A stretch of DNA of 64,000 nt, taken from positions 248,001 to 312,000 of the forward strand of contig JAMLGM010000004.1 in the NCBI GenBank assembly GCA_023957975.1, written 5' to 3'. The stretch is from Microthrixaceae bacterium (GTDB taxonomy: Bacteria; Actinomycetota; Acidimicrobiia; Acidimicrobiales; Microtrichaceae). The notes under the pieces are model-generated. The model saw nothing but the letters and a program-made list of their open reading frames with translations. It was not told the origin of the DNA and ran no database searches. Both the position numbers and the translations under genes were made by a program. Shown here in pieces: positions 36,922-52,083 of the stretch (position 1 is the stretch's first letter; the number at the start of each line of letters is the position of its first letter).

Positions 36922-37498
36922 CGGCGTCTCCGGTGGCGACAGGGGAGCGGTCGGACAGTTCGTGGTTGGACAGGTCGTGGTCGGGGTGGAGCGAAGCAAT
37001 GTCGCGAGGGGTGAAGGTCGTCTTGCAGGTCCGGCACCAGAACCCCTGTTCCAGTTCGCGCCCGCAGGTCTCATGCACGAGCACCGTCGGCGGCGACCCG
37101 TCGTTGAGCCAACGGTCGCCCCAGCGCATGAGCGCGACGAGCGCCGGGCTGAGTTCCATGCCCATCGGGGTGAGGCGGTACTCGAAGCGCTGCGGATGTG
37201 TCTGGTATTGGCGCCGCACCATCACCCCGGCTTCGACGAGCTTCTTGAGCCGATCCGCCAGCACCGGCCGAGCGATGCCCAGGTCGGTGCGGAAGTCATC
37301 GAATCGACGGATGCCGCGAAAGGCATCGCGCATGATCAGGATCGTCCAACGATCGCCGATCACCCCGAGGGCGCGAGCGATCGAACAATCAACCTCGGAT
37401 TCCTCGCCGACGTTCGCGATCTCGGCGACGTCGTCGAGGCCGGTGTTCGGGGCGGTACCCGGCCGAATGGTGGGAGCTGAAGTCACGGGCCGCACCAT
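36911..37498 (-). CDS. HxlR-type transcriptional regulator with Cys-rich tail
   Basis: A 195-residue winged-helix regulator. CSIARALGVIGDRWTILIMRDAFRG is the HxlR-family start, with recognition helix region DDFRTDLGIARPVLADRLKKL. The family Cys near the start may act as a redox or electrophile sensor. Beyond the normal 110-120 residues the protein has a tail containing LVHETCGRELEQGFWCRTC, three cysteines spaced like a zinc ribbon. It is immediately upstream of fbiC with an 11-base overlap, so it may control F420 synthesis. The binding site was not identified. Confidence 0.88.
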   Translation of the reverse strand: MVRPVTSAPTIRPGTAPNTGLDDVAEIANVGEESEVDCSIARALGVIGDRWTILIMRDAFRGIRRFDDFRTDLGIARPVLADRLKKLVEAGVMVRRQYQTHPQRFEYRLTPMGMELSPALVALMRWGDRWLNDGSPPTVLVHETCGRELEQGFWCRTCKTTFTPRDIASLHPDHDLSNHELSDRSPVATGDADDH

Positions 37499-37579
37499 AG
37501 TTCGAAAAGCGAACCGAGTGGGTTCGTTTCACAAACCCACCCCCAACAACCAGCCCAAGCGCCCGCAAACCACCCCAAA

Positions 37580-37639
37580 CGCCCGTTCTCCGATAACCAG
37601 TGGTCGTGATCACGACCACTGGTTATCGGAGAACGGGCG
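37580..37639. repeat. 60-bp perfect palindrome (copy 1)
   Basis: A perfect inverted repeat without a central loop, 30 bases per arm, centred on gtga/tcac (37609/37610). It lies 33 bases downstream of the transaldolase stop (minus strand). The inner 50 bases are identical to the palindrome at 51665-51724, and the flanking arm bases differ but keep pairing. It probably ends transcription of transaldolase, although no U-tract follows. Confidence 0.9.
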
Positions 37640-37671
37640 GCGGGGCAGGCTCTCCCTCGCGGCGGGGCGGG

Positions 37672-38775
37672 CTAGGACGTGAGTTGCTGGGCCTTGGCGG
37701 CGAGGACGGCGAGCAGGTCGTCGTAGGCCGAGATGAACGACGCCACGCCCTCGCGCTCAAGCTGTTCGGCCACCGCGTCGAGATCGACGAGTGCGCCGAC
37801 CGACTTCCACACCTGGTGTGCACCCTCGACATCCCCATCGACCGTGCGCGCCACCGTGCCGTGATCCTCGAACGCGTCGAGGGTCGCGTCCGGCACGGTG
37901 TTGACCGTGTCGGGGCCGATCAGGGTGTCGACATACAGCGTGTCGGCATAGGCCGGGTTCTTGGTCGAGGTCGAGGCCCACAAGGGACGCTGCGGACGCG
38001 CACCCTTCGCCGCGAGCGCCTCCCAGCGATCGCCCGAAAACGTCGAGCGGAACATCTCATAGGCGAGCTGACCCTGCACGAACGCAGCGTGCCCGCGCAA
38101 CGACAGCGCCTCGTCGGTGCCGATCGCATCGAGGCGCTTGTCGACCTCGGTGTCGACCCGGCTGATGAAGAACGACGCCACCGACGAGATGGTGGACAGG
38201 TCGTCGACCCCCGCCGCCACCGCCGCCTCAAGCCCGCTCAGGTAGGCCTCCATCACCTCGGCGTAACGCTCGAGGCTGAAGATGAGCGTGACGTTGATCG
38301 AGTGGCCCTCGGCGATCATCGTCGAGATCGGCGCCAGGCCGGCCCTGGTAGCGGGAATCTTCACCATCAGATTCGGAGCATCGATGCGCTCGGCGAGGTC
38401 GCGCGCCGCCGCCTCGGTCGCCGCAGAATCGTGCGCCAGTGCCGGGGAAACCTCCACGCTGACGAAACCGTCGGCGCCACCCGAGGCGTCATGGGTGGAG
38501 CGCAGCAGGCCGAGCGCATCGTTGATATCGCTGATCACGAGTTCCCAGTAGGCGTCTTCCACCGACGCCCCACCAGCGATCAGCGCCGAGAACTGTTCGT
38601 CGTACTCGGTGGCCGACTCGATCGCCTTCTGAAAGATGGCCGGGTTGGACGTGATGCCGCGCACGCCGCGGTCGATCCAACGCTGGATCTCGCCGGAGTG
38701 CAACCACTCGCGCTTGAGATTGTCGAGCCACGGACTCTGGCCCTGCTCATCGAAAAGTTCGTGTAGGCGACCCAT
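37672..38775 (-). CDS. tal: Transaldolase
   Basis: A 367-residue transaldolase of the actinobacterial long type. N-terminal SPWLDNLKREWLHSGEIQRWIDRGVRGITSNPAIF and NLMVKIPATRAG, containing the Schiff-base Lys, are conserved. The active centre also includes NVTLIFSLERY. It exchanges dihydroxyacetone units in the non-oxidative pentose phosphate pathway and works with the transketolase gene directly upstream (51 bases). ATG 38775 has GGAG 6 bases before it. Confidence 0.95.
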   Translation of the reverse strand: MGRLHELFDEQGQSPWLDNLKREWLHSGEIQRWIDRGVRGITSNPAIFQKAIESATEYDEQFSALIAGGASVEDAYWELVISDINDALGLLRSTHDASGGADGFVSVEVSPALAHDSAATEAAARDLAERIDAPNLMVKIPATRAGLAPISTMIAEGHSINVTLIFSLERYAEVMEAYLSGLEAAVAAGVDDLSTISSVASFFISRVDTEVDKRLDAIGTDEALSLRGHAAFVQGQLAYEMFRSTFSGDRWEALAAKGARPQRPLWASTSTKNPAYADTLYVDTLIGPDTVNTVPDATLDAFEDHGTVARTVDGDVEGAHQVWKSVGALVDLDAVAEQLEREGVASFISAYDDLLAVLAAKAQQLTS

Positions 38776-38826
38776 GTAGTGCTCCGTTCCTGGGCGTTAT
38801 GGCGGCGAGATCTGTGCGGAACAGGA

Positions 38827-40791
38827 TCAGTTGCCGACGAGTTCGGTGGCCCGAGCGACGACGTTGGCGACGTTGATGCCGAGGCGATCCATGACGACAT
38901 CACCGGGGGCTGATGCGCCGAACCGATCGATGCCGATCGCGTCGTCGACCCAACGATGCCAGCCGAAGGTCACGCCCGCCTCGATCGACAACGACGGGAC
39001 CCCCGAGGGGATGACCGATTCCTGATACGCACGCCCGGCGGCCTCGAAACGCTCCCAACTCGGCATCGACACCACGCGGGCAACGATCCCGGCCGAGGCC
39101 AGCTCGGCGGCCGCGTCGATGGCTACCGACACCTCCGACCCGGTGGCCACCAGCGTGATCTGCGCATCCGACGGGTCGAGGAGCGCGTAGGCCCCCTTCG
39201 CCACACCGTCGTAGCTCGTGCCCGAGAGCACCGGCAGGTTCTGACGGCTCATGATCAGCGCCATGGGTGCGTCGCCCTCGATCATCAGGCGCACCGCGTG
39301 GGCCGTCTCGTTCGCATCGGCTGGGCGCATCACGTCGAGGCCGGGGATGGTTCGAAGCGAGGCCACGTGTTCGACCGGCTGATGGGTCGGACCGTCCTCG
39401 CCCACGCCCACCGAGTCGTGAGACCAGGCGAACAGCACCTTGGTTCCCATCAGCGCGGCGAGGCGCACCGACGGACGCATGTAATCGGAGAACACCAGGA
39501 AGGTCCCGCCGACCGGCAAGATACCCCCGTGAAGCGCCATGCCGTTCATGGTGGCGCCCATCGCATGCTCTCGAACGCCGAAGTGAATCTGACGGCCGTC
39601 GGGGGCCTCGGCCGACATCGGCGTCTGCCCCTTGAGTTCGGTGCCGGTGTTGCCGGTGAGATCGGCACCACCACCGGCGATTGCCGGAACCGAATCGACG
39701 AGGGAGTTGAGGACCTTCGCGAGTGCGACACGAGTCGCCACCGACTCACCGACCTCAAAGGTGGGAAGTGCATCTGTCCAGCCGGCGAGACCGGTGAGGG
39801 ATTGGCGCGACTCATAATCGTCGCGGCGGTCGCCGAGCGCTGCCGGAAGTGCCGCCTCCCACGCCGCCCGGGCCTCGCCGCCTCGGACGCCGGCGTTGCG
39901 ATAGGCGGCGAGCACCTCGTCGGGCAGATGGAACGACTCATCGACCGGAAGCCCCATCACGGCCTTGGTGGCCTCGATGTCGGCGGCCTTGAAGGCGAGG
40001 CCGTGTGCCGAGGCCGAGTCGGTGAGGGTGGGCGAGGGGAACCCGATGTGGCTGCGCACCACGATCAGCGTGGGACCGCCACGGTGGGCACGGGCATCGT
40101 TGAGCGCCGATTCGAGGGCGTCGAGGTCCTCGGCCGCTTCGCCGAGATCGACGACGTTCCACCCGTAGGCACGGAACCGGCCCACCGCGTTGTCGTCGAG
40201 CGCGAGTTCGGTCGGACCGTCGATCGAGATGTGGTTGTCGTCGTAGATGACCGTCAGATTGTCGAGACGCTGGTGGCCGGCGAACGATGCGGCCTCGTGG
40301 CTCACGCCTTCGGACAGGTCGCCGTCGCCGGCGATGCACCAGATGTGATGGTTCGACACCGCCTCTCCGAACGATGCCCTGGTCGAACGCTCGGCGATCG
40401 CCATGCCGACCGCGTTGGCGATGCCCTGGCCGAGCGGACCCGTGGTGACCTCGACGCCGGCGGTGTGGTGAACCTCGGGATGGCCAGGGGTGAGCGAGTC
40501 CCACTGACGAAAGTCGCGAAGGTCGTCGAGGGTCAACCCGTATCCGGTCAGGTACAGCAGGGAATACTGCAGGATCGAGGCGTGGCCGGCCGAGAGTACG
40601 AAGCGATCGCGATCGGCCCACTGCGGTGCCGATGCGTCGTATCGCATCACCCGGGTGAACAGCACATGAGCGAGGGGAGCGAGCGCCATGGCCGTGCCCT
40701 GATGGCCCGAGTTGGCCTTCGCCGGGGCGTCCATCGCGAGCCCGCGAATCACGTTGATGCCGAGCGTGTCGAGTTCAGCGGTGAAAGCCAC
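38827..40791 (-). CDS. tkt: Transketolase
   Basis: A 654-residue thiamine-diphosphate enzyme. GTG 40791 is preferred because AGGGG precedes it by 7 bases and the product then has family length; the upstream open frame adds non-conserved residues. Motifs: NSGHQGTAMALAPLAHVLF, then GDGDLSEGVSHEAASFAG, the ThDP-binding motif, and HDSVGVGEDGPTHQPVEH in the pyrimidine domain. It transfers two-carbon units between sugar phosphates. Operon with transaldolase. Confidence 0.95.
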   Translation of the reverse strand: MAFTAELDTLGINVIRGLAMDAPAKANSGHQGTAMALAPLAHVLFTRVMRYDASAPQWADRDRFVLSAGHASILQYSLLYLTGYGLTLDDLRDFRQWDSLTPGHPEVHHTAGVEVTTGPLGQGIANAVGMAIAERSTRASFGEAVSNHHIWCIAGDGDLSEGVSHEAASFAGHQRLDNLTVIYDDNHISIDGPTELALDDNAVGRFRAYGWNVVDLGEAAEDLDALESALNDARAHRGGPTLIVVRSHIGFPSPTLTDSASAHGLAFKAADIEATKAVMGLPVDESFHLPDEVLAAYRNAGVRGGEARAAWEAALPAALGDRRDDYESRQSLTGLAGWTDALPTFEVGESVATRVALAKVLNSLVDSVPAIAGGGADLTGNTGTELKGQTPMSAEAPDGRQIHFGVREHAMGATMNGMALHGGILPVGGTFLVFSDYMRPSVRLAALMGTKVLFAWSHDSVGVGEDGPTHQPVEHVASLRTIPGLDVMRPADANETAHAVRLMIEGDAPMALIMSRQNLPVLSGTSYDGVAKGAYALLDPSDAQITLVATGSEVSVAIDAAAELASAGIVARVVSMPSWERFEAAGRAYQESVIPSGVPSLSIEAGVTFGWHRWVDDAIGIDRFGASAPGDVVMDRLGINVANVVARATELVGN

Positions 40792-41200
40792 CAGGGAGCC
40801 CCTTCGAGATGTGTTGTGTGCCGACGTGCACATGGCGTCGGGCGGTCGTGGGTGAGGTGCCCGTCGGGTTCCGAAAGAAACGGCGTCGAGCGAAACATGT
40901 CGTCGCCCGGTCACCGACACGTCGACGGCCGCCGAAGCAACTCGGCGGGCCCGGGCGCGCGCCATGCTACTCGCCGCGCCGCGACGCCTCGCCACGTCGG
41001 GCGCGCCGCACGGGCGGGGCGAGCCGGCTTCGGCGGAACTCTGCGTTGATGAGGAGCACCCCACCCCGAGCACCACCAGCGCAGCGAGCGACACCGGCGC
41101 AGCGACCGACACCACGAGCGCGGTACGACGCTGAACCGTGCGGCGGCACACCGCGCGAAGGTGCACCGCGCGGCCGCGAACCGCGCGGCGGTCCCCGAGG
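40792..41200. other. 409-bp region without a recognised gene
   Basis: Extremely GC-rich sequence between transketolase and the FIST gene. Frames here read as Arg/Ala/Pro-rich, as expected of GC-rich non-coding or decayed DNA. Several short imperfect direct repeats occur, for example gcgcagcgagcgacacc and gcgcagcgaccgacacc at about 41089-41115. One minus frame joined to transketolase would give a signal-peptide-like stretch, but it has no ribosome site and is not accepted. It may hold the tkt-tal promoter; none was identified with confidence. Confidence 0.6.
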
Positions 41201-42346
41201 TCACCCGTTGCCGAAGATCGCCAACGCTACCGACTGGGTGTGGACCAGGGTGCGCCCACCCACCGGCCCGATCTCACCCGCACACATCATCCCGGCGACC
41301 GCACCGCCGAGCATCTCGACGATCAGCCCCGCATCGTGATCGGGTCCGTCGAACAGCCCGCGTCCCCGTGTCGTGCAGTTGAAGGCCAGCGCACCGGCGA
41401 CGCCGCCCTCGTGGAGCTCGCGAAGCCTGGATACGAGGTCCTCATGGGCGGAGGCGGCATCGCGCACCTGGAACTGCACCGTGGCGCCGACCGGGATCTC
41501 GTCGTCGATCGCCACCGCACCCACCGAACGGTCTGCTCCGAGCACGCTGCGGACCAGGAAGTCGCCGCGGCCGTGTTCGAGCCGGGCCTCGTCGATCACC
41601 CGGCCGATGTGCAACCCCGCGGCCATCAGTCGCTTTTCGGCATCGGTGCTCGATTCGACCAGTTCGTTGATGCGTTCGACTGCGCTTCGGCCGCCGATCT
41701 CGTACAACACGTTGCGTTCGGCGCGGGTGACGACGAATGGCTCGCCGATCGGTCGACAACCCTGTGATACCGCGGCGCGAACATCGACCGTGTCGGGCAG
41801 CCATACCCCGACCGCGCCGGTGGTGAACCGTTCGTCGTCGAGGACCAGGGTGTTGCCCCCAGGGCCGAGCGCCCCCGAGGCCATCCCGCCGACCATGGTC
41901 ACCCCCGGGGCCACGACTCGCAGGTGGTCGATCACCTGGTCCATGGCGAAGGAGAACGGATCGGCGAGCAGCAACAACGTCCCCTCGTCGGCCTGAAGCG
42001 CGGCGCCACCGGCGACCAACAGATGCTCAGCGGTGGGGATCGCCTCGAGGCGGACGGGTTCGACATCGACGCCGAACCGGGCGGCCCACAGCGATATGGC
42101 AGCACCGCCCTCGATCTCCTGGCCGCCCCCGAGGACGCCGGCGGCGGTCGCCCCGACGAGCACCCGCGGGTTGAGGAGCCTTCGGACCACGCGGGCGATG
42201 TCCTCGATGGCCCCGCCATGGGATCGACTGACGAACACCATGGCGATGTCGGGGGCGGCGTCGAGGGATTCGAGCACCTGACCAACGACCTCGCCGACCG
42301 CCTGCGTGGCGAGCGGGTGCTCGCTGAGCGCGGCGGCGAACCTCAT
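41201..42346 (-). CDS. FIST-domain sensory protein
   Basis: A 381-residue protein built of FIST_N and FIST_C domains. The first 190 residues include MVFVSRSHGGAIEDIARVVR and VLVGATAAGVLGGGQEIEGG, the FIST_N signature. The second half, around residue 220 on, has the FIST_C small-molecule-binding pattern and ends with ALAFNCTTRGRGLFDGPDHD. FIST proteins bind small ligands such as amino acids and often work with signal transduction genes; none is adjacent here. No signal peptide. Confidence 0.88.
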   Translation of the reverse strand: MRFAAALSEHPLATQAVGEVVGQVLESLDAAPDIAMVFVSRSHGGAIEDIARVVRRLLNPRVLVGATAAGVLGGGQEIEGGAAISLWAARFGVDVEPVRLEAIPTAEHLLVAGGAALQADEGTLLLLADPFSFAMDQVIDHLRVVAPGVTMVGGMASGALGPGGNTLVLDDERFTTGAVGVWLPDTVDVRAAVSQGCRPIGEPFVVTRAERNVLYEIGGRSAVERINELVESSTDAEKRLMAAGLHIGRVIDEARLEHGRGDFLVRSVLGADRSVGAVAIDDEIPVGATVQFQVRDAASAHEDLVSRLRELHEGGVAGALAFNCTTRGRGLFDGPDHDAGLIVEMLGGAVAGMMCAGEIGPVGGRTLVHTQSVALAIFGNG

Positions 42347-42402
42347 GTGACGCCTCGCAGGCGGTCACCGGCTTCGGGCCGCCGAGCATCGCCCCCGCCT
42401 GG

Positions 42403-42452
42403 GTTCTGTAGGTACTTTCGGTGGCCCTGGCCACCGAAAGTACCTACAGAAC
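42403..42452. repeat. 50-bp palindrome with 24-bp perfect arms
   Basis: Arm 42403-42426 (starting gttctgtaggtactttcg), 2-base loop, and a perfectly complementary arm 42429-42452. It lies downstream of the 127-aa gene stop (42474) and before the FIST start, so it probably terminates transcription on the minus strand. No U-tract. Confidence 0.9.
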
Positions 42453-42473
42453 GGTTGAGCGGCTGGCGAGGGT

Positions 42474-42857
42474 TCACCCGGCGGCGAGCAAGCTGTAGGG
42501 CACGACCGTCGCCGGGCCACCGTCGAGGCGCACGTGGGCCTCCACCGTGCCCGGTTCGTCGTAGCTCAACTCCGCCCGCACGAGGCGATAGCCGAACTTG
42601 CCCTGTTCGATGTCGACGGGCTGAGCGTTGCGGGCAATCTGTTCCCCGTCGCGCAGGAACGTCACCTCGAGCGCCGCGACGGTGTTTTCGCCTGGCGCGC
42701 AGCGGATGATGACCACCAGATGAGGCGACACCGTCACCGGATAGGGGCCCGGGGGCACCGCCGAGAACTGGATGCCGCTCATATCGATGCGAGTCGATGG
42801 ACCGGCCACCTGGCGAAGGTTGATCTCGTCCAGGAAGAGTGCGGAGAGAATCTGCAT
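42474..42857 (-). CDS. Small conserved hypothetical protein, 127 aa
   Basis: A 127-residue soluble protein. ATG 42857 (MQILSALFLDEINLRQV) is the natural start; the open frame upstream runs over the divergent acyl-CoA synthetase subunit gene. The sequence has alternating beta-strands, for example VSPHLVVIIRCAPGE and AALEVTFLRDGEQIA, and resembles the DUF6941 type of small beta-rich proteins (not certain). Divergent from the ADP-forming synthetase pair, with 73 bases between. Function unknown. Confidence 0.65.
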   Translation of the reverse strand: MQILSALFLDEINLRQVAGPSTRIDMSGIQFSAVPPGPYPVTVSPHLVVIIRCAPGENTVAALEVTFLRDGEQIARNAQPVDIEQGKFGYRLVRAELSYDEPGTVEAHVRLDGGPATVVPYSLLAAG

Positions 42858-42930
42858 GGCTGCGACGCTAGTGCCGACGCGAGGACCGAGGGCCACGGTC
42901 ACAACCGCCTCGACGCGTAGGATGGCCGCC

Positions 42931-43626
42931 ATGTCCTCACCAGCTTCGTCGCCCCTCACCCGGCCCGCGACCCACACGCTGTCCGAAGCCGAGTCCAAGG
43001 CGTTCCTCGAGCCGTTCGGCGTGTCGATCGCCCCCGAACGCGTCGTGGCCACCGCCGAGGCGGCAGTCGCCGCCGCCGAGGAGATCGGTTGGCCGGTTGT
43101 CGCAAAGCTCTGCGGGGACACCATCGCCCACAAGACCGAACGTGGCCTGGTGCGCCTTCATCTCACCGGCGCCGACGCTACGCGACAGGCCGCCCAGTCG
43201 CTGCTCGACGCCGCACTGCCCGACGACGGAGAGGTCGGCGTGCTCGTCGCTGCGATGATCAGCGGCACCCGGGAACTCATCGCCGGAGTGGCCCGCGACC
43301 CGCAGTTCGGGTTGACCGTCATGGTAGGGATCGGCGGTGTGCTCGCCGAGGCGATCGGCGATGTCGCCGTCGGGCTCGTGCCCATCACCACAGCCGATGC
43401 CCACGAGATGATCGATGCGCTCGAGTCGGTGGCGTTGCTTGGTGAGTTCCGGGGCGAACCAGCGGTCGACCGGGAGGCACTGGCCGCAGTGCTGGTCGCG
43501 TTGAGCGATGCCGCAGCCTCGAACCCGGCGGTGCACTCGATCGACCTGAACCCGCTCATCATCGCCAATGGCACGCCGATCGCGGTCGACGCGTTGGTCG
43601 AACTCACCACCGAAGGAACCCGCTGA
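42931..43626 (+). CDS. ADP-forming acyl-CoA synthetase, beta (ATP-grasp) subunit
   Basis: A 231-residue ATP-grasp protein matching the beta subunit of NDP-forming acetyl/acyl-CoA synthetases. SEAESKAFLEPFGVSIAPERVV is the typical ATP-grasp start, GWPVVAKLCGDTIAHKTERGLV the nucleotide loop with Lys and His, and SIDLNPLIIANG a metal-binding end. A second start (ATG 42922) is possible. The stop overlaps the alpha-subunit ATG by one base (TGATG). Together they form an acyl-CoA/ADP ligase. Confidence 0.9.
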   Translation: MSSPASSPLTRPATHTLSEAESKAFLEPFGVSIAPERVVATAEAAVAAAEEIGWPVVAKLCGDTIAHKTERGLVRLHLTGADATRQAAQSLLDAALPDDGEVGVLVAAMISGTRELIAGVARDPQFGLTVMVGIGGVLAEAIGDVAVGLVPITTADAHEMIDALESVALLGEFRGEPAVDREALAAVLVALSDAAASNPAVHSIDLNPLIIANGTPIAVDALVELTTEGTR

Positions 43627-45101
43627 TGCCCACCGACGAGCAATTCAAGGCGCTCTTTGAGCCGCGTGGCGTGCTCATCGCCGGAGCCTCGACCCACCCC
43701 GGCAAGTTCGGGTTCGTGTCGCTGCACAACGTGCTGGCGTGCGGTTTCCCCGGCAAGGTGTTCGCGACGAATCGAGACGGGGCCGAGGTGCTCGGCGTGC
43801 AGTCGGTGCCCGACATCGACGAGCTTCCGGCCGGCGAGATCGACCTGGTCTTCGTCTGCACCCCCAAAGACGCCAACCCGGACCTGTTGCGCAAGTGCGC
43901 GGCGAAGGGCGTCAAGGCGGCGTTTTTGACCTCGGCCGGCTACGGCGAGGCGGGGGAACAGGGACGCCGCGACGAAGCCGATCTCGTCGCGTTGTGCGAG
44001 GAACTTGGAATCCTGCTGGCCGGACCGAACGGCCAAGGGGTGGTATCGACCCCGGCACAACTCTGCGCACAGATCGTCGCGCCCTACCCGCCCGCCGGCC
44101 CGATCGGCGTGGCGTCACAGTCGGGGAACTTCATCTCGTCGTTTCTCAACCTGTCGCTGGCCACCGGCGTGGGCATCAGCCGCGCCGTGTCGGCAGGCAA
44201 CGCAGCCGCCACCGGCGTGGCGGACTTCCTGGGGTTCTACGAGTCCGACCCGGCGACCAAGGTCGGGCTCGCCTATGTCGAAGGGCTCGAGGATGGTCGC
44301 GGCTTTTTCGACGCCGTTCGACAGATCACCCCGACAATGCCGGTGGTCGTCGTGAAGGGCGGCGCAACCGCCGGGGGAGCGAAGGCCGCGTCGAGCCACA
44401 CCGGCTCGCTCGCCACCGACGATCGTGTCTTCGATGGCGCATGTCGACAAGGCGGCCTCACCCGGGCGCGCACCGTCGAGGAGGCCTTCGAAGCGGCGGC
44501 CACCCTGGCCACGCAGCCATTGCCAGCGGGCAATCGCGTGGTGGTCATGACCACCGCAGGTGGGTGGGGAGTGGTCACCGCCGATGCCATTTCCGCCAGC
44601 CGCACCCTCGAACTCGTCGAGTTGCCCGACGATCTGCTCGCAGCGATCGATGAGCACCTTCCGCCGCGCTGGAGCCGAAACAACCCGGTCGATCTCGCCG
44701 GCGGCGAAACCCGCGACACGATTCCGACGGTGATGGAACTCATCGCCCGGCACCCCTCGGTGGATTCGATCGTCTATCTCGGACTCGGCATCCAATCGAA
44801 CCAGGCGGCGATGATGGTCGACGGACCGTTCTATCCGGATCACGGCCTCGAGCGCATCGTCGAGTACCACCGCCGCCAAGACGCCCGCTTCGCCCACGCC
44901 GCGGCCGAGATCTCCGAGGCCACCGGTAAGCCGATCCTGTGTTGCACCGAGCTCGCGATCTCCGATCCGACCAACGCCGGTCCCGCGGCGGTGAGGGCAT
45001 CGGGCCGTGTGTGTTACGCAACCGCCAATCGTGCGGTCACCGCACTCGAGCACCTGACCCGCTACGCCGAGTTCCGCCGCCACCACGAACAGAACGCGTG
45101 A
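43626..45101 (+). CDS. ADP-forming acyl-CoA synthetase, alpha (CoA-binding) subunit
   Basis: A 491-residue alpha subunit: CoA-binding Rossmann domain first (VLIAGASTHPGKFGFVSLHN), then succinyl-CoA-ligase-like domains with GPNGQGVVS and AASSHTGSLATDD, the His region that carries phosphate in the catalytic relay. With the beta subunit it converts acyl-CoA, ADP and phosphate to acid and ATP, or the reverse. Most bacterial homologues are single fused chains, so the split pair with beta first is somewhat unusual. Substrate unknown. Confidence 0.9.
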   Translation: MPTDEQFKALFEPRGVLIAGASTHPGKFGFVSLHNVLACGFPGKVFATNRDGAEVLGVQSVPDIDELPAGEIDLVFVCTPKDANPDLLRKCAAKGVKAAFLTSAGYGEAGEQGRRDEADLVALCEELGILLAGPNGQGVVSTPAQLCAQIVAPYPPAGPIGVASQSGNFISSFLNLSLATGVGISRAVSAGNAAATGVADFLGFYESDPATKVGLAYVEGLEDGRGFFDAVRQITPTMPVVVVKGGATAGGAKAASSHTGSLATDDRVFDGACRQGGLTRARTVEEAFEAAATLATQPLPAGNRVVVMTTAGGWGVVTADAISASRTLELVELPDDLLAAIDEHLPPRWSRNNPVDLAGGETRDTIPTVMELIARHPSVDSIVYLGLGIQSNQAAMMVDGPFYPDHGLERIVEYHRRQDARFAHAAAEISEATGKPILCCTELAISDPTNAGPAAVRASGRVCYATANRAVTALEHLTRYAEFRRHHEQNA

Positions 45102-45111
45102 CCCGCCGACC

Positions 45112-46710
45112 ATGACCGACCGCCCGCCGACCGACGACTTCTTGCATCAGGCCCCGCAGCAGCAACCGCCGCAACCAACGCGACGACGGTCGCAGCACGC
45201 CGGGCCCACCGGGCGAGTCGGGCGCGTCGACGCCTCACCCGGTGCCCGGCCGCGCCGAAGCCGGTCGGCAGTGCTGGTGGGCGCCGGGATGGTCGTCGCC
45301 GGACTCCTGGTCGGAGGGTGGGCGTGGAGTGACGAATCGGCACGCTCCGATGCGGCGACTCCCGCGACCTCGTCCGCCGCCAACTCGCCGAGCGCCACCA
45401 CCGCGGCTCTGTCGGCTCGACGGGTCCCCAAGTTCCTCGTCGCTCCCCAAGCGGACCGGCGGCTGAACAACGCCATCGCTCCGAAGCTCGCTGCCCTGAG
45501 CGACACGAGCTGTTTCGAGGTCCGAGACGGCGAGCGCGTCATCGTGTCCCACGGCACCGATCAGGCACTCGCCGTGGCGTCGAACCAGAAGCTGCTCACG
45601 GCGTGGGTCGCGCTCGAGGTGCTCGGAGCCGACCACACCTTCACGACCCGTTTCGCCACGACCGCTCCGATCGACGGTGGCGTCATCAACGGCGACCTCT
45701 GGATCATCGGCGGCGGCGATCCGCTGCTGGAGTCCGACACGTACCGGTCGACGTTCAAGTGGGGCAAGGGGGCACACACGAGTATCGAGGCGATCGCCGA
45801 TGAGCTCGCGGCGCTCGGGATCACCGCCATCACCGGGTCGGTCGTCGGGGACGACTCGTTCTTCGACGCCGAGCGAACCGTGTCGACGTGGCCGAGCCGG
45901 ATGCTGGCCCAGGGACAGGTCGGCCCGCTCAGCGCGCTCAGCGTAAACGATGCCCGAACCTACAGCCCGATTCCGGGTGCTGGCGGGGGCGCGCAACCTG
46001 CCTCAGACCCTGCCGCCTGGGCCGCCGACGCATTCACCCAACTGCTGAGCGCCCGTGGCATCGCTGTCGGCGGCGCGCCGGCGAGCGGCCAGGCTCCCGA
46101 GACGACGAACACCGTGTTGGAGATCGCCTCGCGTCCCGTATGGCAACTCCTGGCGCAGATGCTGACCTTCAGCGACAACAACACCGCGGAATTGCTGGTG
46201 AAGGCCATCGGCCGCGAGGTGTCGGGGGAGGGATCGACCGCTGCGGGGTTGGTCGCCATGGTCGACCGGCTCGGCGGTCTCGGCACCGACATGTCGCAGA
46301 TCTCCCTGTTGGACGGCAGCGGACTCGACGACGGCAGCCGGGTCACCTGCGATCTGATCCTGGCAACCCTCAACGGCGACGACTCCGACCCCGACCCGTC
46401 CCAGGGCGTGCTCGCCGCGGGGTTGCCGACCGCCAATGGAGAGGTGGGCACCTTGCGCGACCGGTTCCACAACAGCCCTGGGGCCGGACGGGTCTTCGCC
46501 AAGACGGGCACGCTGCGATCGGTCACGGCGTTGAGCGGCTGGGCCCAGGCGCGCGAGGAACGAATCAGCTTCGCAACGGTGATCAACACCGTCGGGCGCG
46601 AGGTGACCGGCGCGGACACCAACGCCGAAGATGCGTTGGCGGCCGCGCTGATCGACTATCCCGATTCGATCGACCCGGCGCTCGTCGGCCCGAGCGTGCC
46701 GCGCCCATGA
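45112..46710 (+). CDS. dacB: D-alanyl-D-alanine carboxypeptidase/endopeptidase (PBP4 type)
   Basis: A 532-residue membrane-anchored penicillin-binding protein of S13 type. A Pro/Gln/Arg-rich cytoplasmic tail precedes a helix (SAVLVGAGMVVAGLLVGGWAW). Active-site motifs are in order: SNQK at residues 157-160, SDN at 354-356 and KTG at 464-466. It trims peptidoglycan stem peptides outside the membrane. The stop overlaps the LON-domain gene start (ATGA). Starts 10 bases after the acyl-CoA synthetase alpha gene, so it may be in the same transcript. Confidence 0.93.
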   Translation: MTDRPPTDDFLHQAPQQQPPQPTRRRSQHAGPTGRVGRVDASPGARPRRSRSAVLVGAGMVVAGLLVGGWAWSDESARSDAATPATSSAANSPSATTAALSARRVPKFLVAPQADRRLNNAIAPKLAALSDTSCFEVRDGERVIVSHGTDQALAVASNQKLLTAWVALEVLGADHTFTTRFATTAPIDGGVINGDLWIIGGGDPLLESDTYRSTFKWGKGAHTSIEAIADELAALGITAITGSVVGDDSFFDAERTVSTWPSRMLAQGQVGPLSALSVNDARTYSPIPGAGGGAQPASDPAAWAADAFTQLLSARGIAVGGAPASGQAPETTNTVLEIASRPVWQLLAQMLTFSDNNTAELLVKAIGREVSGEGSTAAGLVAMVDRLGGLGTDMSQISLLDGSGLDDGSRVTCDLILATLNGDDSDPDPSQGVLAAGLPTANGEVGTLRDRFHNSPGAGRVFAKTGTLRSVTALSGWAQAREERISFATVINTVGREVTGADTNAEDALAAALIDYPDSIDPALVGPSVPRP

Positions 46711-47375
46711 CCGATGCCGTCGACGGGGACAGCGACCCGATTGGCACGACCGACCCCGAGTCGCTGCCGATGTTTCCGCTCGGAACCGTCCTCATGCCGA
46801 CCGGATTGCTACCACTTCGCCTGTTCGAACCCCGCTATCTGCGTTTCATCGAGGATGTGCTCGCGGCGGGCAACGGGTTCGGCGTCGTGTTGATCGAGCG
46901 CGGCAGCGAGGTGGGCGGCGGCGACCAACGGTGCATGATCGGCTGTCGCGCCGTCGTGCATCGAGCCGACCAGGCCCTCGATGGCACGTGGCAGGTCCTG
47001 GCGATCGGCACCGAACGCATCGAGGTGGTCGACTGGCTGGCCGACGACCCCTACCCGCGGGCTCTCGTTCGACCGCTGCCGGACCGTTCCTCGCCGGTAG
47101 CGGCCGACGACGACCCCCGGTGGCTGGAGCTGGACACGTCGTTTCGCCATCTGGTGCGACTCGTGTCCGAACGAACCGGTCGCGGCCCGATCGAGGAGAT
47201 CGAACTCGCCGACGACCCGGCGCTGGCGACCTTTCAGATGGCCGCGGTCCTGCCGCTCAACCCGTTCGATCGCCAACGGATCCTGGCATCATGCGACGTG
47301 GATGAGCGTCGCCGCATCCTGCTCGAATGTTTCGAGGACCTCGCCGTGCTTGTGAGCGGCGAGGAGAACCACTAG
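46707..47375 (+). CDS. LON substrate-binding-domain protein
   Basis: A 222-residue protein consisting of a Lon N-terminal-like (LAN/LON) domain: PMFPLGTVLMPTGLLPLRLFEPRY is the diagnostic start, followed by FGVVLIERGSEVGGG. No protease or AAA domain is present, so it is a stand-alone substrate-binding type as seen in many actinobacteria. Overlaps the PBP4 gene (ATGA). Confidence 0.92.
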   Translation: MTDAVDGDSDPIGTTDPESLPMFPLGTVLMPTGLLPLRLFEPRYLRFIEDVLAAGNGFGVVLIERGSEVGGGDQRCMIGCRAVVHRADQALDGTWQVLAIGTERIEVVDWLADDPYPRALVRPLPDRSSPVAADDDPRWLELDTSFRHLVRLVSERTGRGPIEEIELADDPALATFQMAAVLPLNPFDRQRILASCDVDERRRILLECFEDLAVLVSGEENH

Positions 47376-47411
47376 GAAAGGAAGCCGTCGTGACGAATCC
47401 GAGGAGAACCG

Positions 47412-47759
47412 ATGGCTGATGCCAACGCACCACGCACGAAGCCGGCCGATCACGTCAACGAATTGAAGGGACTCGTCGTCGGCTACGCGAAACAAGAGAC
47501 CGTCGATCCGCTCAAATCCCTCGGGCGATACCTGGGCTACGGGCTCGGCGGGGCGTTTCTCGTGGGGGTCGGGATGGTGTTCTTGCTGATGGCGTTGCTT
47601 CGCGGCCTGCAGTCGGCGCCATGGTTCGACCACAACAGCGGTGCGGCGTCGCTCGTGCCGTATGCGGCAACCTTCGTCGCCGCCATCATCGTCATCGCCG
47701 TCGCCGGCTATCTGGGCTTCAAGAACGATCCAAACAAGAAGAAAGACGCAGCGTCGTGA
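47412..47759 (+). CDS. Holin-X-like small membrane protein, 115 aa
   Basis: A two-helix membrane protein: about 45 soluble residues, then GYGLGGAFLVGVGMVFLLMALL, a short loop, and YAATFVAAIIVIAVAGYLGF, then a Lys-rich end. The layout resembles the actinobacterial Holin-X (phage_holin_3_6-like) superfamily, whose chromosomal members have no proven phage role. GAGGAG precedes ATG 47412. The stop overlaps the next gene (GTGA). No phage gene is nearby. Confidence 0.75.
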   Translation: MADANAPRTKPADHVNELKGLVVGYAKQETVDPLKSLGRYLGYGLGGAFLVGVGMVFLLMALLRGLQSAPWFDHNSGAASLVPYAATFVAAIIVIAVAGYLGFKNDPNKKKDAAS

Positions 47760-47962
47760 GCACCGAGAAAATCACCCCCGACGACATCAAGGCCAAGCTG
47801 TCGGCGATTCAGGACGAGGCCACCGGCACGGTCGAAGGCGCGAAAAGCCAATTGATCACCGTCGGCGCCATCGTCGCGTTGGGTGTGTTGGTCATCGCCT
47901 TCATCCTCGGCCGCCGGGTCGGGGTCCGAAAGAACACGATCATCGAGGTGAGGCGCGCGTGA
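47756..47962 (+). CDS. Small single-helix membrane protein, 68 aa
   Basis: Starts at GTG 47756 inside the stop of the preceding gene. Soluble charged N-terminus (STEKITPDDIKAKLSAIQDE), then one membrane helix (LITVGAIVALGVLVIAFIL) and a basic end (RRVGVRKN). Overlaps the next gene (GTGA), so three small genes are translationally coupled. Family not recognised; basic residues after the helix place the C-terminus inside. Confidence 0.75.
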   Translation: MSTEKITPDDIKAKLSAIQDEATGTVEGAKSQLITVGAIVALGVLVIAFILGRRVGVRKNTIIEVRRA

Positions 47963-48492
47963 GCGCCACGACGCGACGGCTCCGTTCCCTCGCGCTCGAC
48001 CGAACCTTCGGCGGAGGATTCGCAGGCTTCGCCGCGTCGGTTGCCATCGGTTGGGGAATCGACCAGCTTCGCAAGGTCGGCGATCCGGTCACTATCGATG
48101 CGACCGACCTGCGCCCCGGCGAGCAGTACGTCGTGACCGCGAGACCCGCGATGAAACGCAAGGAACGAAAGGTCTTCGCCAAACAGCAGGCCGCTCGTCG
48201 CCGCCTCAACACCGCCACGGCGCCGTCGCGGTCGACGGTTCGCGTTGCCCGGAAGCTTTCGCGTGCACAACGCCAGGCGGATCGGCGTCCCACCGGCTCA
48301 CCTCGCCAGCAGCGGGCGGTGCGCCGCTCGGAACGCCTCGGGGCGGCTTATGACCGCCGTGTCGTACCGAGCCGCAAGGTCGCGAGGCTTCAACGCAACG
48401 CCGATGCCCTCGACGCCGAACTCGCCGCACTGCGCGCGGCGAAGGCGGGCCCTCGCAAACGCCGGGTTCCACGCACCCGCATCTACCGCTGA
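47959..48492 (+). CDS. Basic membrane-associated protein, 177 aa
   Basis: GTG 47959 inside the stop of the 68-aa gene. A weak hydrophobic segment (GGGFAGFAASVAIGWGI) is followed by a strongly basic Arg/Ala/Lys-rich tail of about 130 residues, likely a nucleic-acid- or membrane-contacting region. Codon positions are consistent with a real frame, but no family is recognised. It ends the small-membrane-protein set. Confidence 0.65.
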   Translation: MSATTRRLRSLALDRTFGGGFAGFAASVAIGWGIDQLRKVGDPVTIDATDLRPGEQYVVTARPAMKRKERKVFAKQQAARRRLNTATAPSRSTVRVARKLSRAQRQADRRPTGSPRQQRAVRRSERLGAAYDRRVVPSRKVARLQRNADALDAELAALRAAKAGPRKRRVPRTRIYR

Positions 48493-48518
48493 GCCGCGAC
48501 GATGCGCGCTGTGAACTC

Positions 48519-48536
48519 GCCGGTGATTTCACCGGC
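48519..48536. terminator. Short hairpin before the sulfur-carrier gene
   Basis: gccggtga-tt-tcaccggc, an 8-base stem with a 2-base loop in the 68-base gap after the basic membrane-associated gene. No U-tract. It could separate the two transcription units. Confidence 0.4.
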
Positions 48537-48560
48537 CCGGCGATCGGCCAAACTAGGGGT

Positions 48561-48755
48561 GTGAAGGTCACGTTGCGTCACCCAACCCGCGAGATCGAGG
48601 TCTCGGGGCCCATCAGTGTCATCAAGTTGTTGAACCGACTCGAGTTCAACCGTGAGTCGGTGTTGCTCGTACGCAATGGCGAACTCGTCCCCGGCGATTC
48701 GATGCTCGACGACGACGACGTCATCGAGATCCGCCCGGTCATCAGCGGCGGTTAG
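48561..48755 (+). CDS. MoaD/ThiS-like sulfur-carrier protein (TtuB-type)
   Basis: A 64-residue ubiquitin-fold sulfur carrier ending in Ser-Gly-Gly, the C-terminal Gly-Gly that is adenylated and thiocarboxylated. LLVRNGELVPGDSMLDDDDVIEIRPVISGG is the ThiS/MoaD fold end. GTG start. It stands 14 bases before the TtuA-like gene, the arrangement expected of a dedicated TtuB carrier for tRNA 2-thiolation, rather than of ThiS. Alternatives are thiamine or other thiolation carriers. No activating E1-like enzyme is in the window. Confidence 0.85.
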   Translation: MKVTLRHPTREIEVSGPISVIKLLNRLEFNRESVLLVRNGELVPGDSMLDDDDVIEIRPVISGG

Positions 48756-48769
48756 GAGGCGACAGCGCC

Positions 48770-49711
48770 ATGAAGTGCACGGTGTGCCGCGAACCAGCCG
48801 TCATCGATCTACGCCGCCACAACTCCAACTTCTGCGCGCCGCATTTCACGAAGTTTTGCCGCGATCAGGTCGCCAAGGCGGTTCACGAATTCGACATGAT
48901 CGACCCGCAGGACAAGGTGCTGGTCGCAGTGTCGGGCGGCAAGGACTCCCTCGCCGTATGGGACATCTTGTTGGACCTCGGCTACGCGACGACGGGGCTC
49001 TACATCGGCCTGGGAATCGGCGAGTACAGCGACGTCTCCAAGGACTACGCCCGAACGTATGCGAAGCGTCGTGGCGCGGAACTCATCGAGGTCGACATCG
49101 TCGAGAAGTACGGATACGACATCCCCGACGGGTCGAAGGCCGCGCGTCGGGCGCCGTGTTCGGCGTGCGGGCTGTCGAAGCGACACATCTTCGACGACGT
49201 CGCACTCGACGGAGGCTTTGACGTGCTCGTCACCGGTCACAACCTCGACGATGAGGCGGCGGTGCTGTTCGGCAACGTGATGCGCTGGCAAACGGAGTAC
49301 CTCGGTCGGCAACGGCCCGTGCTCGAGGCCCGCGACGGATTTCCGAAGAAGGTCAAGCCGCTCATCCGCCTCGGGGAACGCGAGATGGCGGCCTACTGCG
49401 TCGTCAGCGGCATCGACTACGTCATCGACGAGTGCCCGATGGCGGCCGGCAACAAACACATCGGCTACAAGAACCTGCTCAACGATCTCGAGCGCCAGAG
49501 CCCCGGCACCAAGTCGGACTTCTACCTGAGCTTTCTGCGTCGCGCCTCCGCGCTGTTCACGCCCGAGGCGGACGAGCAACGCGAAGCCCTCGGGACCTGT
49601 GCGACGTGCGGATCGCCGAGCCCCTCGGAAGTCTGCGCCTTTTGCCGCCTCGTCGAACGTGCGGGCGGCGCACAACCCGTCGAACTAACCACGAAGGATC
49701 ACCGCGAGTGA
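48770..49711 (+). CDS. ttuA: TtuA-like tRNA 2-thiouridine/2-thiothymidine synthetase
   Basis: A 313-residue protein of the TtuA/Ncs6 group. N-terminal zinc site Cys3, Cys6, Cys22, His25; PP-loop SGGKDS at 55-60; Cys130, Cys133 (CSACG) and Cys222 (DECP), the three positions that bind the [4Fe-4S] cluster in Thermus TtuA; and a C-terminal zinc site (Cys277, 280, 289, 292). In Thermus it thiolates position 54 of the T-loop using TtuB-thiocarboxylate. Relatives thiolate U34 in archaea and eukaryotes, so the target here is inferred from the neighbours: the sulfur carrier upstream and TrmI overlapping the stop (GTGA). Confidence 0.9.
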   Translation: MKCTVCREPAVIDLRRHNSNFCAPHFTKFCRDQVAKAVHEFDMIDPQDKVLVAVSGGKDSLAVWDILLDLGYATTGLYIGLGIGEYSDVSKDYARTYAKRRGAELIEVDIVEKYGYDIPDGSKAARRAPCSACGLSKRHIFDDVALDGGFDVLVTGHNLDDEAAVLFGNVMRWQTEYLGRQRPVLEARDGFPKKVKPLIRLGEREMAAYCVVSGIDYVIDECPMAAGNKHIGYKNLLNDLERQSPGTKSDFYLSFLRRASALFTPEADEQREALGTCATCGSPSPSEVCAFCRLVERAGGAQPVELTTKDHRE

Positions 49712-50484
49712 GTGCATCGGAACTCCATGAAGGCGACGTGGTGGTGTTGTTGGACAACAAGCACCGCCGCTACCTCCTCACCCTGCAATCCGGCAAGGAG
49801 TTTCATTCTCACGCCGGTTACATCGCCCACGACGAGATCATCGGAGCCGGGGAGGGTGCCGTGCTGACCTCGACGCGAGGCGCCACCTACACGGTGCTGC
49901 GCCCGACGCTGAGCGAGTTCATTCTCAAGATGCCACGCGGAGCGCAGGTCATCTATCCCAAAGACATCGGGCCGATCCTGATGATGGCCGACATCGGACC
50001 GGGCATGCGGGTGCTCGAATCAGGTGTCGGATCGGGTGCGCTGTCGATGGGCATGTTGCGCACCGGCGTGCACATCACCGGTTACGAGCTTCGAGAGGAC
50101 TTCGCCGAACGCGCCCAGGCGAACGTACGCAAGTTCCTCGGCGAGGAGGCCCTCGAACGCTATGACGTGCAGCTTCGCAACTGCTACGAGGGCATCGATG
50201 AACGCGACCTCGACCGCGTGGTGTTGGACCTGCCCGAACCGTGGCAGGTGGTGCCCCACGCACGAACCGCGTTGCGGCCCGGGGGCATCATCGTTGCGTA
50301 CTCGCCGAGCATCGTGCAGGTGATGCAGTTTCGCGACGCCCTCGAACGCGACGGATTCATCCTGGCGGAGACCCTCGAAGTGCTCAACCGCGGGTGGTAC
50401 ATCGAGGGCCAGGCGGTGCGCCCCGATCATCGCATGGTGGCTCACACAGGGTTCCTCACCTCGGCGAGGTGCCCGGGAGGGTGA
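49708..50484 (+). CDS. trmI: tRNA (adenine-58-N1)-methyltransferase TrmI
   Basis: A 258-residue SAM-dependent methyltransferase. Motif ESGVGSGALSMGML is the SAM site; PRGAQVIYPKDIGPILMMADIGPG and DRVVLDLPEPWQ are family markers for TrmI, which makes m1A58 in the T-loop. GTG start in the TtuA-like stop. The downstream MarP-like start overlaps its stop (GTGA). In Mycobacterium, trmI likewise lies close to the proteasome genes. Confidence 0.93.
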   Translation: MSASELHEGDVVVLLDNKHRRYLLTLQSGKEFHSHAGYIAHDEIIGAGEGAVLTSTRGATYTVLRPTLSEFILKMPRGAQVIYPKDIGPILMMADIGPGMRVLESGVGSGALSMGMLRTGVHITGYELREDFAERAQANVRKFLGEEALERYDVQLRNCYEGIDERDLDRVVLDLPEPWQVVPHARTALRPGGIIVAYSPSIVQVMQFRDALERDGFILAETLEVLNRGWYIEGQAVRPDHRMVAHTGFLTSARCPGG

Positions 50485-51653
50485 ACGCCCTCGACGTCGC
50501 GCTGGTCCTGTTCGCCCTTTCGGCGGTGTTCGGTGGTTGGCGCGCCGGGTTCGTGCATCGGGCGTTTTCGTGGCTCGGGCTCTTCGGCGGCATCCTCGTC
50601 GCGTCGATCGTGTTGCGCCGAATCGCCAGCGCGACCGAGGTGGCCACCGATGCCCCGGCACTGTTGCGCTCGCTCGCGGTTCTGGTCGTCGGTGCGGTTC
50701 TCGGCAACGCGGTGGGGACCTGGTTGGGGTCCCGCGCCAGCGCTGCGGTCGACGAGTCGGCTTTCGACCTGCTCGATTCGGCCGGAGGTGCGCTGCTCGG
50801 CCTGGCGTCGACCGCGTTGATGGCGTGGATGGTGCTTCCGACGATGACGATGGTTCCGGGATGGCCCGCAGACATCGCCCGCTCGTCGGTGGTGGCGAGT
50901 CGACTCAATCGCGCACTCGGCCCGGCCCCCGATGTGCTCGACGGTGTGTCTCAATCCCTCGGCCTCGGCGCCTTCGACGGGCTGTGGCACCTCATGGAGC
51001 AGATCGATATCGGGGGACTGCAGCCCGAGGCGCCGCTCGAGACGCCGCTGTCGACCGAGGTCACCGACTCGGCCATCGAGTCCACCGTGCGCGTGCGCGC
51101 CGAGACCTGTGAGGTGTTGTCGCTCGGGTCCGGGGTGGTCGTCTCGCCCGGTGTCGTGGTGACCAACGCTCACGTGATCGCCGGAGCCACGCGCATCGAA
51201 CTCAGCAACGATCAGGGCCTGACGCAGACGGCGACCCTGCATGCGGTGGACACCCACCGAGACGTCGCGGTGTTGTTCGCCAAGGAACTCGACGTGGCGG
51301 CGTTGCCGCTCACCGAGGACCAGACAGCGCCCGACGGTGCGATCTTCGGATTTCCGGGCGGTGGCAGCCTCGCGATCTCGCCGTTCTCCCTCGCGGGGCA
51401 GCGCACGGTCAACTCCACTGATATCTACGGACAGGACAGCTCGGCGCGTGACGTGTTGATTCTCGGTTCGCGCATCAGCCCCGGTGTTTCCGGGGGGCCG
51501 CTCATCTCCCCGGAGGGCCAAGTTGAGGGCCTGGCCTTCGGGGTCGCACCCGACGATCCGCAGACCGCCTACGGAATTCCCGCGCAAAGCGTGCGCGAGG
51601 TGCTCCAGACCGCCAGCCCGGTGCCGGTGCCGTCGGGTTCCTGCCTGCGATAG
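50481..51653 (+). CDS. MarP-like periplasmic serine protease
   Basis: A 390-residue protein with an N-terminal CvpA-like membrane part (four hydrophobic helices) and a C-terminal trypsin-like domain. Catalytic triad by position: His231 (TNAHVIAG), Asp261 (HRDVAVL) and Ser337 (SPGVSGGP), closely matching MarP of M. tuberculosis (His235, Asp264, Ser343), which protects cells at low pH and activates peptidoglycan hydrolase RipA. The window also encodes a lytic transglycosylase-like protein. Overlaps trmI by 4 bases. Confidence 0.92.
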   Translation: MNALDVALVLFALSAVFGGWRAGFVHRAFSWLGLFGGILVASIVLRRIASATEVATDAPALLRSLAVLVVGAVLGNAVGTWLGSRASAAVDESAFDLLDSAGGALLGLASTALMAWMVLPTMTMVPGWPADIARSSVVASRLNRALGPAPDVLDGVSQSLGLGAFDGLWHLMEQIDIGGLQPEAPLETPLSTEVTDSAIESTVRVRAETCEVLSLGSGVVVSPGVVVTNAHVIAGATRIELSNDQGLTQTATLHAVDTHRDVAVLFAKELDVAALPLTEDQTAPDGAIFGFPGGGSLAISPFSLAGQRTVNSTDIYGQDSSARDVLILGSRISPGVSGGPLISPEGQVEGLAFGVAPDDPQTAYGIPAQSVREVLQTASPVPVPSGSCLR

Positions 51654-51664
51654 ACCACCCAAAC

Positions 51665-51724
51665 TGCCTGTTCTCCGATAACCAGTGGTCGTGATCACGA
51701 CCACTGGTTATCGGAGAACAGGCA
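51665..51724. repeat. 60-bp perfect palindrome (copy 2)
   Basis: Perfect loopless inverted repeat, 30 bases per arm, 11 bases after the MarP-like stop. The inner 50 bases equal copy 1 at 37580-37639. The outer arm bases differ from copy 1 in complementary pairs. Flanks are similar as well (about accaccc-aaac before and cggggca after), so the repeated element is wider than the palindrome. Confidence 0.9.
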
Positions 51725-51773
51725 AACGGGGCATGTGGCCGGCAATCGGGGTAGGCAGGCGCGCAGACGCGAC

Positions 51774-51800
51774 GATGCCCCCGCCATCGGCGGGGGCATC
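51774..51800. terminator. Bidirectional hairpin between MarP-like and ferredoxin genes
   Basis: gatgcccccgcc / ggcgggggcatc, a perfect 12-base stem with a 3-base loop, placed between the convergent MarP-like and ferredoxin genes. It can end both transcripts. No clear U-tract. Confidence 0.75.
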
Positions 51801-51837
51801 ATCGCGTCGTATGACGACGACCGAGCTCGGTAGTCGG

Positions 51838-52083
51838 TTAGTCGACCTCGATGAAGATGCACTCGCCGGGGCATTCCTCGGCGGACTCGATCGTGCCTTC
51901 GATCTCGCTGTCCGGAACCTCTGCTAGCCCTTCGGCGCCACCCGGGTCGGAGTGGACCGTGCCGTCGGGGCTCACGACATATGCGAGCCCGTCGTCGAGC
52001 AGTTTGAACACCTTCGGGGCGATTTCCTCACAAAGGCCATCGCCGGTGCACAGATCCTGATCGATCCAGACCTTCATACCCAT
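51838..52083 (-). CDS. Small ferredoxin ([3Fe-4S]/[4Fe-4S] type)
   Basis: An 81-residue acidic ferredoxin. MKVWIDQDLCTGDGLCEEIAP has the first two cluster cysteines (with the usual Gly-Asp-Gly between), and CPGECIFIEVD holds the last ones, the pattern of monocluster actinobacterial ferredoxins. ATG 52083 has GGAG 9 bases before. Divergent from mpa. Such ferredoxins are often found beside the proteasome locus or act with cytochromes P450; no P450 is seen here. Confidence 0.9.
   Translation of the reverse strand: MGMKVWIDQDLCTGDGLCEEIAPKVFKLLDDGLAYVVSPDGTVHSDPGGAEGLAEVPDSEIEGTIESAEECPGECIFIEVD

Follow-up and report, generated by a model that had tools for sequence, protein, structure and literature searches.

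A window of 64,000 nt from the draft genome of a Microthrixaceae bacterium (genome G000, 3,617,258 bases in 28 contigs; positions 248001-312000 of contig C4, accession no. JAMLGM010000004.1) contains two 60-bp palindromes at gene ends (Table 1). We consider it probable that both are members of a high-copy, loopless palindromic repeat of about 52 bp, here termed family A, and that family A belongs to a class of repeats with CG(AA/TT)CT motifs at their ends (feet), which is likely mobile, settles behind stop codons, and would give transcripts that fold into a very stable hairpin. As described in the first-pass annotation of the window, both palindromes are perfect and loopless with 30-bp arms, share identical inner 50 bp, lie behind stop codons, and are not followed by a U-tract. 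The distance from copy 1 to the stop codon of a transaldolase gene is 32 nt, and copy 2 starts 11 nt past the stop codon (51653) of a gene for a MarP-like protease.

Copy number, identity and boundaries of family A

A search of the whole genome with the 44-bp centre of family A, allowing up to 3 mismatches, yielded 95 places, while the reversed control yielded none; among the matches listed (50 of the 95 copies), all were exact. Sequence was then sampled as 60 stretches of the same genome, chosen around known copies and hence selected, and the completed sample contained 72 family A copies. In the first 40 stretches and the window, 53 of 64 full copies were identical over 50 bp. The other 11 were variants in which changed pairs among the inner 18 stayed Watson-Crick, with the exception of one G-T, and in which unpaired changes fell in the outer 7 bp. 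With up to 5 mismatches allowed, the 651,555 bp of sampled sequence contained no solo arm, barring one copy truncated by a contig end.

These properties support the earlier suggestion of a dispersed palindromic unit. They also decide one half of the alternative that had been raised with it, a recent local duplication of a core occurring only twice and missing from relatives: the 95 genome-wide copies rule out the duplication, and absence from relatives holds for the 98 other genomes searched, in which family A gave no match at E ≤ 0.01. An artefact of assembly might be suspected in a draft of 28 contigs, but the copies lie in many contigs with different flanks and equivalent families occur in other genomes (see below), so that, taken together, local duplication and misassembly have a negligible probability. 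Pairs of DNA uptake signals serving as terminators would likewise place one sequence many times at gene ends. Such signals, however, should also appear as scattered single arms, of which none was found in the sampled sequence, and with only 95 copies and several co-existing families this explanation is hardly credible. The core had no match in viral contigs (searched with an exact 26-mer), plasmids or phages, and a phage, plasmid or viral origin was rejected; an exact 25-mer was also without match in a collection of genome contigs from which the source genome was possibly left out.

The first-pass annotation had noted that the outer bases of the two window copies differ in pairs. This is true of the two copies but not of the family in general: across the 72 copies, -1/+1 is the only flank position with clear covariation, its bases being Watson-Crick in 44 copies where shuffles expect 32.1 (P = 0.0025), and general compensation of the flanks was rejected. 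Because of this covariation, 52 bp is the most fitting length for the unit, YGTTCTCC...GGAGAACR. Further out, positions -2 to -4 carry a conserved GCC without covariation, pairing is depleted at -5 to -8 (80/288 vs 107.9 in shuffles, with 0/2000 shuffles as low), and it is slightly raised at -9 to -24 (424/1152 vs 397.4, P = 0.037). The unit stops sharply outside -4. The depletion at -5 to -8 looks like avoidance of longer palindromes. The annotation had also called a 60-bp palindrome normally unstable, which is doubtful: strong palindrome instability in bacteria is usually quoted at lengths far above 60 bp, though a review searched on this point gave no such length.

Two features of the flanks were also seen. 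The approximately 15 nt preceding the units are C-rich on either strand (55-58% C and 14-22% G in family A, against a background after stops of 35% C and 33% G) and the sequence after them is G-rich in families A, B and E (B and E are described below); window positions 37555-37584 and 37635-37660 are an example. This bias may be a preference for certain targets or may belong to the element. Two family A copies 1.3 kb apart (L136:5009 and L136:6291) nearly share their right flank (CTAGTCGGTGGCCAGGCCG) and differ in their left flanks.

Related families in the same genome and in relatives

The window contains two further palindromes that were overlooked in the first-pass annotation, a member of family B and a related, diverged member of family C (Table 1). 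Searching the genome for family B with exact 12-bp feet gave 25 copies, all of them 50 bp long although 42-64 bp were allowed, and the control gave none; with looser feet, 30 copies were counted in the sampled sequence, a number without control. Its interior is far more varied than that of family A, and the GTAG in it sits inside the paired stem. Some copies (e.g. L106:4176 and L216:2517) combine arms from different sub-types, resembling arm exchange between copies. Family C was found at 6 places by BLAST and, by a loose match without control, as 9 members of 51 bp in the sampled sequence. Another near-perfect, A+T-rich palindrome, ATATACCCCTATGGGTATG..., lies in a divergent gap (L124:8059-8101) and is possibly, as we presume from its resemblance, the operator of a metal regulator.

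Other genomes carry families of their own. Family E was first met as a different palindrome in a random stretch of G016, a genome of the same family but another genus, where it occupies 32 distinct places at E ≤ 1e-5 and is represented by 29 copies in the sampled stretches; in G001 and G024, two genomes of the same genus as G016, nothing comparable was matched (best E 0.1 and 6e-4, respectively). A further family occupies 10 places in G099, the genome of locus L052, and shares the foot CGAACTGRTCG with family E. This foot occurs at the right spacing at 24 places in 4 of 397 genomes of the order, and among the matches listed (8 of the 24 places) all are 51-53 bp long, with 46-56 bp allowed. The relaxed pattern CGWWCTG-N37-39-CAGWWCG has at least one match in 296 of the 397 genomes and at least 8 matches, up to 104, in 53 of them (the source genome included), against never more than 3 in the reversed control. 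Low counts are indistinguishable from chance, many of the matches listed are chance or non-palindromic, and in G147, one of the 53, four of the five listed places are a repeated non-palindromic sequence. Among the matches listed, self-complementarity is clear for several from G056, G060, G145, G224 and G246, while others are chance.

Class members across genomes are 50-53 bp long, start with CG(AA/TT)CT, and have complementary arms despite differing sequence. The feet can change symmetrically: in G056, similar interiors are bounded by CGTTCTG feet in one case and CGAACTG feet in another, and some family E copies (L162:8739, L177) have feet changed on both sides. De novo palindrome searches yielded 4 in the 64-kb window, 7 in 105,724 bp of G005, 6 in 240,000 bp of G004, 9 in 1,228,778 bp from 80 transaldolase loci (one of which, in L052, is clearly of the class), and 1 in 254,624 bp of other stretches from the same family; as these yields differ strongly between sequence sets, palindrome presence is patchy. 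The class is present in the genomes of many relatives. The order is probably Acidimicrobiales, because the best named relatives of the window transaldolase (about 67% identity) are mostly from there. A direct tandem of two units, with starts 61 bp apart, was seen in G224 (L246:1952-2063).

Similar feet and a length of 50-53 bp across genera are also what DNA-binding sites would show if a conserved chromosome-organising or regulatory protein read CGWWCT feet at fixed spacing. Recognition of the feet alone, however, needs no self-complementary interiors that differ between lineages, the feet of family E can change on both sides, and presence is uneven among the 397 genomes. We regard binding sites as quite improbable.

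Placement relative to genes

Placement was scored with gene calls from our own hexamer gene finder, and as background we counted those gaps of the same stretches that were at least 40 bp long and free of any family member. The 72 family A copies comprised 33 in convergent gaps, 30 in tandem gaps, 8 in divergent gaps and 1 in a called gene, compared with 28 convergent, 155 tandem and 69 divergent background gaps (Fisher p 4.9e-10 for convergent enrichment). A facing stop codon lay within 60 nt in 60 of 63 family A elements, with a median of 20 nt to the nearest. Family B was similarly placed (18 convergent, 8 tandem, 3 divergent and one at an edge; p 2.8e-9), family C was evenly divided (3 convergent, 3 tandem, 3 divergent), and family E had 8 convergent, 15 tandem and 2 divergent copies, two at edges and two inside genes, against 4/51/19 in the G016 background. 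Within tandem gaps, the unit was nearer to the upstream stop than to the downstream start in 25/30 cases for A, 7/8 for B and 10/15 for E. In the window, which is unselected, a family A copy occupies 1 of 6 convergent gaps. One family A copy (L117:4988-5037) falls within an ABC-3 transporter gene, at its 3' end as called and past the Pfam domain, and the reading frame continues through the palindrome.

A class unit in G056 (L251:1964-2015) lies in frame within priA, where it covers residues 119-136 of 559 and belongs to a linker whose length varies. In an alignment of 40 proteins, some unit-free linkers are about equally long, and the priA unit was not accepted as proof of insertion.

Symmetry and compensated changes

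Changes on both sides of the palindrome relative to the column consensus were nearly always compensated (compensated:uncompensated 8:0 in A, 39:2 in B, 16:1 in C and 19:0 in E), which supports the earlier proposal that a mechanism keeps the pairing; one-sided pair changes were more numerous (15, 76, 24 and 38, respectively). The covariation score of family B was 0.162 vs 0.093 when shuffled (0/500), with slid partners at or below 0.045, though two of five covariation measures were not clearly above shuffles (both-side changes, 170/500; further types, 64/500).

If the RNA stem were under selection, G-U mismatches on the sense strand would be expected to exceed A-C mismatches. In copies of the four families A, B, C and E that lie in tandem gaps, the counts were 28 G-U and 35 A-C (p 0.45 in a small test), which lends no support to selection at the RNA level, and RNA-strand selection was not upheld as the source of the symmetry. 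As there is neither a U-tract nor a bias of G-U over A-C, selection on RNA is by itself not enough to account for the symmetry, and the near equality of G-U and A-C together with the symmetric changes of the feet indicates a DNA process. Symmetry is likely kept at the DNA level during replication, when one arm would fold back and be copied from the other by template switching, a process acting on DNA irrespective of strand. Template switching is described as able to create and repair perfect hairpins (PMC8794818). Template switching would explain both the symmetric foot changes and the tandem duplications next to units, which were present in 23/128 A flanks and 10/54 E flanks compared with 45/653 control windows and 2-6/128 shuffled flanks. 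Such a surplus of duplications would be consistent with slippage of the polymerase where an arm has folded.

Predicted RNA folding

Transcripts of copies 1 and 2 were predicted to fold with -57.4 kcal/mol (z -13.7) and -55.1 kcal/mol (z -14.0), respectively. Five of six folded units had predicted energies of -41 to -57 kcal/mol and the sixth of -36 kcal/mol; stems were 23-28 bp with 3-4-nt loops in five of the six folds, and the sixth, of an E copy, had a mismatch and a larger loop. The tails were about half G, and at least 4 T in the 8-nt tail were found in only 7/96 tails of A, 4/44 of B and 1/31 of E. The terminator function proposed in the first-pass annotation was not upheld in its classical, Rho-independent form: the stable hairpin is predicted, and the U-tract is missing. 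Rfam covariance models gave no match in the window at the gathering score. From gene-end placement, a role of the units at message ends is likely, and an RNA stem of about 23-28 bp would, with no need of a U-tract, protect or end the transcripts arriving from either direction.

Evidence for and against mobility

Two family E sites were compared between G016 and genomes of the same genus. At site 1 (L162), the aligned flanks are 134-140 bp apart in G016, vs 29 bp in G001 and 31 bp in G024; at site 2, 148 bp in G016 compare with 100 bp in G001. The unit is missing at site 1 in both G001 and G024 and at site 2 in G001, and at site 1 in G016 it is bordered by additional copies of its own foot. At a third site, the alignment did not extend past the gene. 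From the empty E sites, the identity of copies in different flanks, the lack of half copies and the lineage-specific families, we infer dispersal as whole units. Copies would move by the action of some enzyme, and gene ends may be where insertion is tolerated.

The same placement could be produced by non-mobile, bidirectional 3'-end hairpins, acting as terminators without a U-tract or as stabilisers of mRNA 3' ends, that arose locally and were homogenised by gene conversion and selection. Gene-end and convergent placement and the predicted folding energies agree with this explanation. It does not account well for 53 of 64 copies being identical over 50 bp in differing flanks without half copies, for the E unit missing in same-genus genomes at the examined sites, for the lack of a U-tract and of a G-U bias, or for the A and B copies in divergent gaps (8/72 and 3/30), and we consider it unlikely.

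Several observations weigh against a mobile unit settling behind stop codons. Divergent gaps contain 8/72 copies of A and 2/29 of E. The 21 units from distant genomes were called inside open reading frames (ORFs) in 11 cases, with 5 tandem, 2 convergent, 2 divergent and 1 at an edge, and 4 of 6 palindromes in G004 were called inside ORFs; gene calls are weak in both sets, in the distant genomes because high G+C keeps several frames open. The empty sites concern family E and not family A, and they differ by 105-109 bp and 48 bp, neither being a single clean unit. Y1_Tnp (PF01797) had no match in the source genome, with a positive control in 5 of 14 genomes, in a genome-wide search that took in this transposase only, and no transposase was found between close copies among 10 of 41 listed genes (5 with Pfam matches, all ordinary). 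No target duplication was seen, the flanks having been given no dedicated test. The conserved feet, finally, could reflect a binding protein. In comparison with a miniature inverted-repeat transposable element (MITE), the whole unit is inverted and the counted tandem duplications lie on one side of it.

A wider picture, which we put forward tentatively as one possibility, is that of an order-wide class of mobile DNA conserved only in the CGWWCT foot, the 50-53 bp length and self-complementarity. Its members would replicate and move as folded single-stranded hairpins and acquire lineage sequences through symmetric, template-switched changes, and to the hosts the copies would serve as message ends working in both directions.

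Comparison with known repeat systems

Nothing describing this class came up in our literature search, whose scope took in neither most subscription journals nor any bioRxiv preprint. The closest likeness is to GTAG/CGTC repetitive extragenic palindromic (REP) sequences (PMC3733652) and REPINs (PMC3116915), described in the available text of these sources as short, dispersed extragenic palindromes with sub-families, like the present units. REPs are characterised there as mostly short tagged hairpins, predominantly of Proteobacteria, with 5-13 bp stems, loops, an unpaired tag and, as cited there, frequent G-T stem pairs (PMC3733652). They share with the present units a number of often tens to hundreds per genome, a position mainly behind ORFs where the neighbouring genes are convergent or tandem, and occasional in-gene copies (PMC3733652). 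In contrast, the present units have stems of about 25 bp with little or no loop, symmetric CGWWCT feet, a length of 50-53 bp, symmetry up to their ends without an unpaired GTAG or CGTC tag, and no G-U excess, and the source genome lacks a Y1 transposase. As placement and copy number agree and tag, stem length and transposase differ, the class works like a REP yet is not a tagged REP. A tagged (GTAG or CGTC) family moved by a RAYT is accordingly very improbable, in spite of the similar copy number, gene-end placement and in-gene units, and a RAYT mobiliser was rejected for the source genome from the lack of PF01797 matches.

The stem-loop sequence (SLS) families catalogued from 40 bacterial genomes (PMC2267715) are repeated hairpins, two thirds of them intergenic and many previously undescribed, as here; the catalogue is heterogeneous, and its available text describes no class with common feet and length across an order. 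The RepRanger REP survey (PMC12306157) searched prokaryotic palindromes, Acidimicrobium ferrooxidans included, with a default maximum palindrome of 32 nt; the portion available lists counts for A. ferrooxidans and mentions no repeats of the present kind. Hairpin correction by template switching (PMC8794818, PMC7202029), as presented in the available text, accounts for simultaneous paired changes and perfect stems, but it is a mutational process rather than an element and does not alone disperse copies.

Rickettsia palindromic elements are mobile palindromic units able to sit in frame within genes. They resemble the priA unit of G056 in this respect and differ in phylum, length and sequence, and the present units are mostly intergenic in the source genome.

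The long-stem, tagless class is present in many genera, presumably of Acidimicrobiales, and offers replicate families in separate genomes. Their comparison can now address how palindromic repeats spread without a known transposase, and whether symmetry reflects selection on RNA or a DNA copying process.

Features of the window

Coordinates of the palindromes and the neighbouring genes are given in Table 1.

Table 1. Palindromic units and adjacent genes in the window
Feature	Position	Strand	Remarks
Family A copy 1	37580-37639		Perfect 60-bp palindrome; 50-bp core 37585-37634; 52-bp unit including the -1/+1 base 37584-37635
Family A copy 2	51665-51724		Perfect 60-bp palindrome; 50-bp core 51670-51719
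Family B member	42403-42452		50-bp palindrome GTTCTGTAGGTA...TACCTACAGAAC; neighbours are a FIST gene and one that lacks a Pfam match
Family C member	62059-62109		Diverged, 51 bp, ...GTTTGTGCAGAATGCGACACC...; loose match, 10/51 bases unlike the query copy
HxlR-type regulator	36911-37498	-	Downstream of family A copy 1, tandem arrangement
Transaldolase (TAL_FSA)	37672-38775	-	3' end faces family A copy 1
MarP-like membrane serine protease (Colicin_V/CvpA + Trypsin_2)	50241-51653	+	3' end faces family A copy 2
Ferredoxin (Fer4_15)	51838-52083	-	Convergent partner across family A copy 2

The convergent gap that contains copy 2 also holds another strong hairpin at 51766-51808, with 20-bp arms and a 3-nt loop. 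A hairpin with 20-bp arms, GAGAAACGGGGTCTCCGAGG, at 14535-14579 separates two minus-strand genes.

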